Positions 6,727-23,786 of a DNA stretch of 64,000 nt are shown here, piece by piece. The DNA comes from Marivirga atlantica (GTDB lineage: Bacteria > Bacteroidota > Bacteroidia > Cytophagales > Cyclobacteriaceae), in assembly GCF_016734805.1 (NCBI RefSeq), contig NZ_JAERQG010000003.1, positions 496,001-560,000 of the forward strand. Reading direction: 5' to 3'. The position numbers were made by a program, and so were the translations under genes. Within the stretch, counting starts at the first letter, position 1, and every line of letters begins with the position of its first letter. The notes beneath the pieces were generated by a model, which was not told the DNA's origin, searched no databases, and was given only the letters and a program-made list of their open reading frames with translations.

Positions 6727-7785
6727 ATGGAAGAAAGTATACTGATTTACGGAGCAAATGGATATACTGGTAAACTCATTAGCCAAGAAGCATTTAAACA
6801 GAAAATAAACGTTCACTTAGCTGGTAGAAATAAGTCTGCAATTCAAGAAATAGCAAAACAAACTGGTTTCGACTATTCAATAGTCTCGCTTGAGGAGAAA
6901 GATAAACTAAGGAACTTACTACAATCATTCCATACGGTTATACACTGCGCTGGGCCATTTACAGAAACAGCGAAACAAATGGTAGATGCGTGCATTGAAA
7001 CAAAAACAAATTACCTCGACATTACAGGTGAAATTTGGGCTTTTGAGGAAGTTATGAATTATTCCAACCAGGCTAGTAAAGCAGAAATTAAATTAATTTC
7101 AGGGGTAGGATTTGACGTGGTTCCAACTGATTGCCTTGCAGCGATGTTAAAAGATAGAATGCCCGATGCAAATTCAATTGAAATGGCCTTTGTTGGAGAT
7201 AAAACTGCAATGTCAAGAGGAACAGCAGTTACCATGGCTAAGAACATCTCTAAAGGAGGCTTTATTAGACAAGCCGGCAAGTTAAAAAATGTGCCTCTGG
7301 CCTATTCTGTAATAGAAATCGATTTTCCTCATAAGAAGCGTACCGTAATGTCTATCCCATGGGGAGATTTGATGACCACCTATCATCAAACGGAAATACC
7401 GAATATCACAATATACTCAGGCGCTAGCAAAAAGCTTATAAAGCGAATAAAACGATTCAGAGCTTTTAAATTTTTATTAGGCATTTCATGGATTCAGAAA
7501 AAGGTCCGAACAAAAATTGAGCAATCCATTACAGGACCTAATCAGAATAGTCTCAAAACCAGCCATACGTATATTGTTGGTACAGTAAAAAATAATAAAG
7601 ATGAGGCACTCACCTTAAAAATGATTACCCCTGAAGCCTACAAGTTAACGGCTTTAACAGCACTTGAGGCTGCGAAAAGATTGATTAATGATAATTCCAG
7701 AGGTAAAACAGGCTACCTCACTCCTGCTCAAGCTTTTGGTAAAGATTTCATTCTAAGTTTTGAAGGAGTTGAACTTATTGAGTAA
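6727..7785 (+). CDS. Saccharopine dehydrogenase-like NAD(P)-binding reductase
   Basis: The N-terminus ILIYGANGYTGKLI (residues 5-18) is the GxxGxxG dinucleotide-binding loop of the saccharopine dehydrogenase/trans-acting enoyl reductase family. Further family marks are the VIHCAGPF segment near residue 73 and LDITGEIWAFE near residue 96. Length (352 residues) fits. Members act on very different substrates, so only an NAD(P)-dependent oxidoreductase can be claimed. It starts one base after the NUDIX stop codon and was probably acquired or kept as a pair with it. No terminator reading in its direction follows the stop. Confidence 0.75.
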   Translation: MEESILIYGANGYTGKLISQEAFKQKINVHLAGRNKSAIQEIAKQTGFDYSIVSLEEKDKLRNLLQSFHTVIHCAGPFTETAKQMVDACIETKTNYLDITGEIWAFEEVMNYSNQASKAEIKLISGVGFDVVPTDCLAAMLKDRMPDANSIEMAFVGDKTAMSRGTAVTMAKNISKGGFIRQAGKLKNVPLAYSVIEIDFPHKKRTVMSIPWGDLMTTYHQTEIPNITIYSGASKKLIKRIKRFRAFKFLLGISWIQKKVRTKIEQSITGPNQNSLKTSHTYIVGTVKNNKDEALTLKMITPEAYKLTALTALEAAKRLINDNSRGKTGYLTPAQAFGKDFILSFEGVELIE

Positions 7786-7791
7786 AGACAT

Positions 7792-7819
7792 AAAAAAACC
7801 CCGGTGAACCAAACCGGGG
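7792..7819 (-). terminator. Terminator of the candidate small RNA
   Basis: CCCCGGT (7799-7805) pairs with ACCGGGG (7813-7819). The T-tract lies on the minus strand side (seven A residues on the plus strand, 7792-7798), and the plus strand side has none, so it serves minus-strand transcription although no minus-strand protein gene is nearby. Confidence 0.75.
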
Positions 7820-7874
7820 TAAACTATCAACCTTAAAATTACGCCCATTTGAATAAATGAATCGTAAAGCTTGA
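7792..7874 (-). ncRNA. Candidate structured small RNA, about 80 nt
   Basis: Read on the minus strand, a TAnnTTTG promoter element (7884-7877) is followed by about 80 bases that fold almost completely and end in a GC-rich hairpin with seven U residues. The predicted parts are: an outer stem of UAUCAAGCUU (7876-7867) with AAGGUUGAUA (7834-7825), one G-G mismatch; an inner hairpin UACG-A-UUCAUUU/AAAUGGG-CGUA (7866-7839) with a 4-base loop and one bulged A; and the terminator. No reading frame of note is present. The outer stem partly overlaps the expected start point. I do not recognise the family; no RNA database could be searched. Confidence 0.55.
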
Positions 7875-7876
7875 TA

Positions 7877-7884
7877 CAAATGTA
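7877..7884 (-). promoter_or_regulatory. -7 promoter element of the candidate small RNA
   Basis: The minus strand reads TACATTTG, a perfect match to the Bacteroidetes TAnnTTTG element. The -33 region is only T-rich, without a clear TTG. Confidence 0.5.
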
Positions 7885-7976
7885 GGGCAGGTTTTTAAAA
7901 CCTTTTTTTCGCATTATTGTATTTCCTTATTCATGTAAGGTTTTTCAATTATTTTAAACAATTATTGTACATACAT

Positions 7977-8696
7977 ATGATTTACCAATTCAAAAAAGTA
8001 ATTCTAATTTTCACCCTAATTCTACTTGGTTGTTCAGCATCAGAAGAAGATTTAATTCAGGCAGCTAAGCGTAAAATGGACACTAAGGCTTATCCTGAGG
8101 CAATAGAATATGCTTCTCAAGCCCTATCTGAGAATAATACTAACCCAAACACTTTCAATTTGAGAGGTGTGGCTTACTTCTTGGAAAAGGATTATTCTAA
8201 GGCAATAAAGGATTTTTCATCTGCAATAAATTTAGACTCCACCAATTACAAGCCGTATTATAATAGAGGAAATGTATATCTAGAACAAAAAGAATACGAA
8301 AAGGCCTTATTTGATTACAACCGCGCCATTAGTCTTTTACCTAACAATGCAGATTTATATATCAACAGAGCAATAGTCTTATATGAGCTTAAGCAATTTG
8401 AAGAAGCACTTGCTGATAATGATTTTGCCATTAAGCTAAGTCCTGAAAATTATTTACCCTATTTAAACAAAGGTAAAACATTAGTGAAACTAGGTAACTT
8501 CAAGGAAGCCTCAGATATGTTAACCAATGTGGTAAAAATCAATGATGAGTTAGGCGAAGCTCATTATTGGTTAGGCTTCATCAGTATTAATACTGGCAAA
8601 AAAGACATTGGTTGCGATTATTTGATCAAGGCAAAAAACAGGGGATTTGAACAAGCTCAGGAGGCGATAGATAAATTTTGTACGAATTCGCTCTAG
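7977..8696 (+). CDS. TPR-repeat lipoprotein
   Basis: The 239-residue product has a signal peptide with lipobox LILLGCSA (cysteine at about residue 19), then about five to six tetratricopeptide repeats: the recurring pattern is A-x-x-x-Y-x-x-A-L/I-x-D-x-x-x-A-I with N-x-x-x-Y-x-N-R-G, seen from residue 40 to the end. TPR lipoproteins act as scaffolds for protein complexes in the periplasm or at the outer membrane. ATG at 7977 was chosen over an upstream in-frame TTG at 7917 because it places the signal peptide at the N-terminus. It has its own terminator and no operon partner. Confidence 0.8.
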   Translation: MIYQFKKVILIFTLILLGCSASEEDLIQAAKRKMDTKAYPEAIEYASQALSENNTNPNTFNLRGVAYFLEKDYSKAIKDFSSAINLDSTNYKPYYNRGNVYLEQKEYEKALFDYNRAISLLPNNADLYINRAIVLYELKQFEEALADNDFAIKLSPENYLPYLNKGKTLVKLGNFKEASDMLTNVVKINDELGEAHYWLGFISINTGKKDIGCDYLIKAKNRGFEQAQEAIDKFCTNSL

Positions 8697-8766: not shown

Positions 8767-8838
8767 TAGCCCGTAGGGGAATCGAACCCCTGTTTCCAGG
8801 ATGAAAACCTGACGTCCTAACCCCTAGACGAACGGGCC
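8767..8838 (-). tRNA. tRNA-Glu (TTC), copy 2 in transcription order
   Basis: A complete 72-base cloverleaf is readable on the minus strand: acceptor GGCCCGT with ACGGGCT, anticodon stem TCAGG/CCTGG, loop TTTTCAT with anticodon TTC (glutamate), and T-loop GGTTCGATTCC. CCA is not encoded. It is identical to the copy at 8880-8951 and probably shares its transcript. Confidence 0.97.
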
Positions 8839-8879: not shown

Positions 8880-8951
8880 TAGCCCGTAGGGGAATCGAAC
8901 CCCTGTTTCCAGGATGAAAACCTGACGTCCTAACCCCTAGACGAACGGGCC
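8880..8951 (-). tRNA. tRNA-Glu (TTC), copy 1 in transcription order
   Basis: This is the same 72-base tRNA sequence as at 8767-8838, separated from it by 41 bases. The anticodon loop reads TTTTCAT. A near-perfect Bacteroidetes promoter lies just upstream on the minus strand (8969-9000), and the shared terminator is at 8733-8764, so the pair forms one tRNA operon. Confidence 0.97.
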
Positions 8952-23229: not shown

Positions 23230-23420
23230 AACATCTATTTTGGATAAGTCGAGCATTAAAAACTACCACCAGATTATAATGTGTATTAAGCCTATAATGT
23301 CTGGGTTATCTGAATGGGTATTTCACTACGGAAGACCAGATAGCATCTTTAGGCACTGTATTTATTGCAAGAGTGAGTATTATTCTCTTTCTTGAGTTGT
23401 TTAACCTAATCAACCTTAAA

Positions 23421-23786
23421 ATGAAAAGACTTCTACTTTTACTTGCTTTTTTATGCTTTACTGCCACTTCGCAAGCACAAACCATCAAACAAGCTACAGC
23501 CCGAATTTTTGAGTCTCAGTCAAAAGAATTGTCACGTATCGTTTTGGTATATGAAACGGGAGAAAGTGAAATAATTGAATTAGAGAATTTCAAAATGTTG
23601 GCAAGCAGCTCTTCTACTAATGAAGTGCTGATAGAAAATCAAAAGAAGATCAACAAGCTCTTCAATGATATGGCTGAAAAAGGTTATGAAATATCCAAAA
23701 TGACTACTACTGGCGAAGTATTCCTTTACACTTTTGTAGTTTTCACCAAAAAGGTTGACACCCTTTTTGAGATGGGTGACAACTAA
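23421..23786 (+). CDS. Small exported protein of unknown function
   Basis: The 121-residue product has a clean signal peptide (MKRLLLLLAFLCFTATSQAQ). The mature part (TIKQATARIFESQSKELSRI...) is a short mixed alpha/beta domain with the pattern MAEKGYEISKMTTTGEVFLYTFVVF, similar to DUF4177-like small proteins in which a G-Y/W-E motif precedes beta-strands. ATG at 23421 is chosen because it starts the signal peptide; the frame is open further upstream to GTG at 23373, but that part has hydrophobic sequence from the decayed region. The function is unknown. Confidence 0.65.
   Translation: MKRLLLLLAFLCFTATSQAQTIKQATARIFESQSKELSRIVLVYETGESEIIELENFKMLASSSSTNEVLIENQKKINKLFNDMAEKGYEISKMTTTGEVFLYTFVVFTKKVDTLFEMGDN

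Follow-up and report, generated by a model that had tools for sequence, protein, structure and literature searches.

Most of what is known about regulatory RNAs in the Bacteroidota comes from Bacteroides of the gut, with some host-associated species besides. In the open-licence literature we found no paper on a Marivirga small RNA or on small RNAs (sRNAs) of the Cytophagales or Cyclobacteriaceae; related searches led to work on, among others, Bacteroides, Flavobacterium and Acinetobacter. According to PMC11697453, B. thetaiotaomicron has 14 FopS paralogues, which prevent translation of susC-type mRNAs by binding close to their start codons; FopS is in turn bound by the RRM protein RbpB, which counteracts the block. 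GibS, also from Bacteroides thetaiotaomicron, has its R1 seed in common with FopS and binds translation start regions. GibS carries two seeds (R1 and R2) and is glycan-induced. According to PMC9723704, Rfp18 of Flavobacterium psychrophilum is a conserved Bacteroidota sRNA needed for normal protease expression; its pairing region lies in the third stem-loop, and its deletion lowers two target mRNAs. GibS and Rfp18 were compared with the RNA reported here by description only.

Here we describe a minus-strand locus at 7792-7884 of the window (the whole 64,000-nt stretch of Marivirga atlantica DNA that was analysed), which is almost certainly a functional RNA gene, strongly conserved and absent from Rfam. 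Searching the whole window against Rfam returned only two tRNAs at gathering thresholds, and six loci from other genera likewise matched no family at gathering. The two tRNA genes stand in tandem on the minus strand with equal scores (8767-8838 and 8880-8951) and are apparently tRNA-Glu, the anticodon having been read by eye. Low-threshold matches of the locus (PsrR1, anti-hemB, RyhB, rteR and others) were set aside, as they rest mainly on the terminator; for the photosynthesis regulatory RNA PsrR1 (RF02701), the likeness lies in the terminator hairpin and adjoining bases (25.6 bits, E 0.0021), is limited to model positions 48-79 and falls below the gathering score of 42.

The match to FopS (RF04319) aligns UUUAAGGUUGAUA to UUUAAGGUUAAUA and scores 16.8 bits (E 0.9) against a gathering score of 56. 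Of 13 positions in the linker before the terminator, 12 are identical in the FopS seed, a value reached by 11 of 2000 shuffles; this figure is uncorrected for the picking of FopS from 13 weak Rfam matches. Both RNAs have UUUAAGGUU(A/G)AUA before the terminator, at 9 versus 11 nt from the stem. FopS has susC-type start regions as its experimentally established targets, and those predicted here are start regions of exported proteins, a complementarity seen in silico in Marivirga and not seen in G163, an RNA-positive genome of genus g13. On the other hand, the Marivirga RNA is present as a single copy in this genome versus 12-15 copies of FopS, it has an extra 5' hairpin, and its outer stem is able to cover the seed, unlike FopS, for which PMC11697453 describes a single-stranded 5' stretch. 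By analogy, the RNA would thus work like FopS in its proposed mechanism but lacks two features of that family, the model score and the multicopy arrangement. The earlier remark that no known family was recognised holds for Rfam at gathering thresholds but has to be qualified by the resemblance of the linker to the FopS seed; the family to which the Marivirga RNA belongs is new, but its kind is familiar.

The RNA gene and its conservation in Marivirga

A first-pass annotation had put forward a structured small-RNA candidate equipped with a promoter and a terminator of its own, a proposal that the comparative evidence supports: the locus has the free-standing gene, promoter and intrinsic terminator of a trans-encoded base-pairing sRNA (Table 1). 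The promoter element TACATTTG is a perfect TAnnTTTG, as claimed, which we take to be the -7 type of Bacteroidota promoters, and its letters are identical in all ten Marivirga genomes aligned. The claimed fold, nearly end to end, is borne out, with a minus-strand minimum free energy of -27.9 versus -14.3 kcal/mol (sd 2.45) for 200 dinucleotide shuffles, none of which equalled it (z -5.5), but the outer stem has 9 pairs (UAUCAA/UUGAUA plus CUU/AAG around one G-G mismatch) rather than 10; the inner hairpin is just as it was described. The plus strand likewise folds well (z -4.7). The terminator hairpin has 8 pairs with seven U/T directly 3', the T-run is usable by the minus strand only, in line with the original claim, and a terminator scan calls the site on that strand, although the scan alone proves nothing, since it gives 2 terminator-like sites in 2.2 kb versus 1.9 expected.

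Table 1. Coordinates of the features discussed (window positions)
Feature	Position	Strand	Basis
Promoter -7 element TACATTTG (TAnnTTTG type)	7884-7877	minus	read from sequence
Outer stem, 5' arm UAUCAAGCUU	7867-7876	minus	fold; present in Marivirga
Inner 5' hairpin, 11 pairs, one bulge, 4-nt AUUC loop	7840-7866	minus	fold
Conserved linker UUUAAGGUUGAUAG, proposed seed	7824-7837	minus	cross-genus conservation; complementarity tests
Intrinsic terminator, ACCCCGGU/ACCGGGGU hairpin plus T7 run (7798-7792)	7792-7820	minus	fold, terminator scan
Predicted target site ATCAACCTTAAA (L148)	23409-23420	plus	directly before ATG 23421

The flanking ORFs, 6727-7785 and 7917-8696, are both on the plus strand; named by eye, the gene ending at 7785 is saccharopine-dehydrogenase-like and the one starting after 7917 encodes a TPR lipoprotein. 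Minus-strand ORFs listed nearby (63-73 aa) sit within plus-strand genes, which agrees with the absence of a minus-strand protein gene noted at first pass. The small RNA and the TPR gene are divergent, and a CCTTACATGAAT block that lies between them at 7929-7940 is well conserved in the genus and is perhaps a shared regulatory site.

In a search of 59 relatives, the block was found at 96-100% identity in all nine other Marivirga genomes, which places it beyond chance. Averaged over 30 columns of the ten-genome alignment, identity is 0.96-1.0 for most of the element, against 0.52-0.83 for the flanking sequence, with a near-invariant stretch running from TACATTTG to TTTTTTTATG; near-invariance beside variable flanks points to strong purifying selection. 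The ten genomes reduce to four distinct rows, in which 98.2% of cells are paired: all cells of the inner hairpin are paired, with a single one-sided change from U-G to U-A, and one outer-stem pair is lost in two of the four rows. The compensating changes in three stems that would have counted as support did not appear within the genus. No pair changed on both sides in the four rows, a result reached by 500 of 500 shuffles, so that the control is uninformative, and the lack of such changes reflects how little the element varies.

The linker and its homologues in other genera

A model of linker plus terminator built from five sequences (model R1) and run against 295 family genomes gave matches at E <= 1e-5 in 22, among them the five that supplied the model sequences; the 22 are ten Marivirga genomes and twelve others from six genera. 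G130, from genus g50 (E 3.4e-4), was accepted because of its promoter TATCTTTG and hairpin. The linker (U)UUAAGGUUGAU is kept before the terminator in seven other Cyclobacteriaceae genera, or eight genera with Marivirga included and G130 counted as the eighth. All 22 genomes have TTTAAGGTTGAT, and G130 has ATTAAGGTTGAT. The 5' hairpin differs between genus groups, and neither Marivirga 5' stem is kept outside the genus, where the linker and the terminator persist; since the hairpin is replaced and the linker kept, conservation resides in the linker rather than in the stems. Nine homologues from g13, g26 and g92 could be aligned, and their terminator stem has 98.6% paired cells with four pairs changed on both sides (9 cells); 0 of 500 shuffles reached the covariation score, and 40 of 500 had at least as many pairs of this kind. 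Outside the genus, compensating changes are found for the terminator stem in three genera but not for the two 5' stems, which are not kept there.

The RNA has common neighbours within groups of genera (gene names by eye). Eight of the nine g13/g26/g92 homologues lie between LON-domain-like and aminotransferase-like genes, the LON-domain-like neighbour but not the aminotransferase-like one having been found in G128, and the RNA adjoins a Sua5/YrdC-like gene in G020, G022 and G130. Among the matches listed, only G031 has two strong copies (L055 and L074), whose upstream sequences differ and whose 3' halves are near-identical.

Promoters also differ in class, with TAnnTTTG in Marivirga versus a sigma-54-like GG-N10-GT in three other genera. 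All nine g13/g26/g92 homologues carry GG-N10-GT (GGCAC or GGCAT, then TTGT) about 12-13 nt before the hairpin, which we take to resemble a sigma-54 promoter, but with GT in place of GC; TAnnTTTG occurs no more than 120 nt upstream of the linker in two of the nine (G203 at -61, G128 at -100). All 22 genomes examined for sigma-54 encode it. TAnnTTTG lies 59-62 nt before the linker in G130 and in both copies of G031 and 80 nt before it in G022, and none was found upstream of the linker in G020.

An exact linker-plus-terminator pattern gave 16 records in 84,980 species genomes, of which 13 carry the cassette and match family genomes. We regard the records L083 (within an open frame), L086 and L093 (both without the rest of the cassette, by eye) as chance. 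Model R1 run over 390 order-level genomes gave 11 matches at E <= 0.001, nine of them within the family; the two matches outside it, in G508 and G617, are unconvincing and look by eye like ordinary gene-end terminators (L379 is without the linker and L378 has TTTAAGGATGACAG). Matches in G037 belong to an unrelated dispersed repeat with AAGGAGGATAG (13 copies examined of 14 matches), and these 13 copies (L028-L040) contain TTTAAGGAGGATAGTTTACC. At E <= 0.1, model R1 matched 151 of 295 family genomes, mostly weakly, and TTTAAGGTTGA lies within reach of a T-run in 94 of 295, some with terminators (g78, g58 and other genera); both sets were treated as possible relatives and left out of the counts. 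TTTAAGGTTGA stands directly before terminators in g78 (L066, L081) and g58 (G311, G266, G275), in g78 just behind a reading frame, and these elements are possible 3'-UTR-derived relatives.

Among 15 viral contigs, 13 (L414, L416-L427) share a cassette of TTTAAGGTTGAT plus terminator, with sigma-70-like TTGAC...TATAAT promoter letters upstream (by eye) and a short reading frame downstream, which is probably unrelated to the Bacteroidota RNA. Viral contig L415 may carry a phage-borne relative: at positions 759-798, TATATTTG is followed by TTTAAGGTTGATAACCCC...GGGG and a T-run.

Complementarity of the linker to gene starts

In Marivirga, the linker is statistically complementary to the starts of genes for exported proteins. 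Simple rules of our own served here: the first ATG of an ORF was taken as its gene start, and signal peptides were assigned from hydrophobicity and motif. The 11-base linker complement ATCAACCTTAA occurs 111 times in the ten Marivirga genomes, 10 of these being the RNA gene itself, and 86 distinct sites were read among the other 101 (12 unread, 3 duplicate contexts). Sense gene starts, with an ATG no more than 12 nt upstream or 45 nt downstream of where the site begins, were found at 21 of the 86, and 15 of them are signal-peptide-like; the opposite strand gave 3 gene starts and 1 signal-peptide-like. At least three of the 21 are orthologues of others, leaving 18. As a control, we took ten family genomes with neither the linker-plus-T-run pattern nor a model R1 match at E <= 0.1, the exception being G222 with a match at E 0.04, and found 1 sense and 2 opposite starts at 30 sites (30 of 60 read). 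The difference from Marivirga gives a Fisher p of 0.007, or 0.015 with 18/83 after removing the three orthologues, in a comparison unmatched for base composition (G222 has 40.5% G+C versus 36.7%).

Pairing energies point the same way in this genome (G000, 725 starts), where 18 signal-peptide-like genes pair with the linker UUUAAGGUUGAUAGUU at -11 kcal/mol or better. Shuffled linkers gave 5.6 (sd 2.8) and 0 of 300 reached 18, and the other genes gave 14 versus 10.3 (reached by 50 of 300). The signal-peptide counts at -9, -10 and -12 were reached by 21, 13 and 1 of 300 shuffles. With a 20-nt linker at -12, we counted 19 versus 6.4 signal-peptide-like genes (0/110) and 15 versus 11.7 others (23/110), and over all genes the longer linker gave 34 versus 18.3 at -12 (3/120) and 95 versus 77.2 at -10 (18/120). 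In Marivirga aurantiaca (G002, 333 starts), signal-peptide-like genes numbered 6 versus 2.2 at -11 (9/300) and 10 versus 5.0 at -10 (16/300), and two of the better pairs involve what are by eye TonB-linked receptors, 1047 and 1067 residues long. G222, which is without the RNA, gave 3 versus 2.4 at -11 (47/100) and 8 versus 5.4 at -10 (19/100). On Marivirga starts at -11, the FopS linker paired with 2 signal-peptide genes versus 18 for the Marivirga linker, which says little since the FopS linker is more A/U-rich.

Within the window, the predicted site before ATG 23421 precedes the gene of a 122-aa signal-peptide-like protein (23421-23786) and has a duplex energy of -14.9 kcal/mol with the 16-nt linker; an alternative GTG start at 23373 would place the site inside the reading frame. 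Among eleven 8-mers of the complement, six are found at gene starts at 3.4-4.6 times and one at 2.8 times expectation (counts 3-7 each), the remaining four at 0.6-1.7 times, and no complement k-mer is among the 25 most enriched there. In g103 genomes (e.g. G239, G263, G288), a leader TCAACCTTACCCAGATTTTAAAATTTCAACAAAATGAA that contains the linker complement recurs with close variants in several species.

Other results weigh against pairing with these gene starts. RNA-positive G163 (304 starts, 400 kb) showed no clear excess, with 4 versus 2.9 at -11 (35/100) and 18 versus 12.2 at -9 (10/100). In G000, control windows at -100..-46 were somewhat above shuffles at -11 (signal-peptide 7 versus 4.1, others 12 versus 8.7), and the start windows read in antisense were as well (6 versus 4.4). 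A crude scan of 295 genomes for TCAACCTTA-N1-28-ATGAA gave no support for RNA specificity: Marivirga had 65 hits versus 57 for the reversed pattern, and g78, without a model R1 match better than 3.9e-5, had 144 versus 36. It is conceivable, if unlikely, that the RNA is a base-pairing sRNA with one or a few dedicated targets and that the exported-protein signal arises as a by-product because the leaders of such genes are A/C-rich and have little structure. The lack of a Marivirga excess in the spacer test fits this reading, as does the presence of TCAACCTTA before ATGAA in 281 of 295 family genomes. Target sites are also mostly not conserved among orthologues: for target 1, a strong site was found in 0 of 7 orthologues with a readable start (best -8.0; G002 start not found), and for target 2 it was kept in only one of eight related places (G003, -13.4). 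However, by-product leaders do not account for a signal-peptide bias that no dinucleotide-shuffled linker reproduced in G000 (0/300) and that is absent in one genome and one ten-genome set without the RNA.

Proposed mechanism and significance

We propose that the locus encodes an Hfq-independent trans-acting antisense RNA for exported-protein mRNAs, a reading to which we assign a probability of roughly 0.6. Transcription, presumably in response to an inducing signal, would start near 7876-7870 at the primary-sigma-type promoter TACATTTG and end near 7792 at the GC hairpin and U7, yielding an RNA of ~80 nt. The linker between the 5' hairpin and the terminator would be the seed and in the cell would pair with AUCAACCUUAAA-like sequences around the start codons of exported-protein mRNAs, the predicted sites lying between -45 (the edge of the tested window) and +12 relative to the start codon. 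Candidate targets include lipoproteins and TonB-linked receptors (by eye), and pairing would presumably repress them by blocking translation initiation, as FopS does in Bacteroides.

The RNA might instead act through a protein, the linker being the binding site of an RNA-binding (e.g. RRM) protein that is titrated or delivered, which we consider improbable. It would suit such a role that replacement of the 5' stems has left the linker in place, that FopS, according to PMC11697453, associates with RbpB through its 5', seed-bearing part, and that Hfq (PF17209) was matched in 0 of 22 genomes, the same profile having matched 5 of 14 control genomes. Protein binding does not, however, predict antisense matches at gene starts. 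A strict scan for the RRM motif, covering the window and stretches that make up part of the genomes of G000, G163, G222 and G002, gave no match.

For the proposed antisense RNA, the 5' end adds a possible level of control. UAUCAAGCUU matches the predicted mRNA target UAUCAACCUU in all but one base and pairs with the linker; this near copy of the target could hold the seed closed. In the predicted fold, the Marivirga seed is about half paired, a point against its proposed role, and the mean unpaired probability of the linker is 0.46 if the RNA starts at AUCAA and 0.74 if it starts three bases later; the true 5' end thus decides whether the seed is locked, and the 5' arm may mask the linker in Marivirga. 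Linker accessibility in other genera was 0.38-0.60, values that are unreliable because the folded stretches ran past the terminator. The same one-base likeness to the target could make the RNA a sponge or decoy whose 5' end captures a different small RNA by its seed; this is very unlikely, since no second copy was found in this genome (G000), where the next best match is 25 nt inside a 366-codon open frame, and the 5' arm is not seen outside the genus. Equally hard to credit is that the locus encodes a small protein or is simply a gene-end terminator accompanied by a chance promoter: a short ATG frame does overlap the 3' half (by eye), but it crosses the terminator into unconserved flank and the genus's two single-base gaps lie upstream of its ATG, and against a gene-end terminator stand the minus-strand-only T-run and a promoter and body roughly as invariant as the terminator.

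Altogether, these findings raise the question of whether gut Bacteroides and marine Cytophagales have retained one and the same seed or arrived at it separately. We advance only tentatively, and with considerable doubt, the view that a very old seed, UUUAAGGUU(G/A)AUA, common to Bacteroidales (FopS/GibS) and Cytophagales, would tune the exported and outer-membrane proteome phylum-wide without Hfq, with scaffold, copy number, neighbourhood and promoter class having changed around it and the Marivirga 5' target mimic serving as a built-in lock. The conserved linker and a testable set of exported-protein targets provide a handle on Hfq-free RNA regulation in the phylum.
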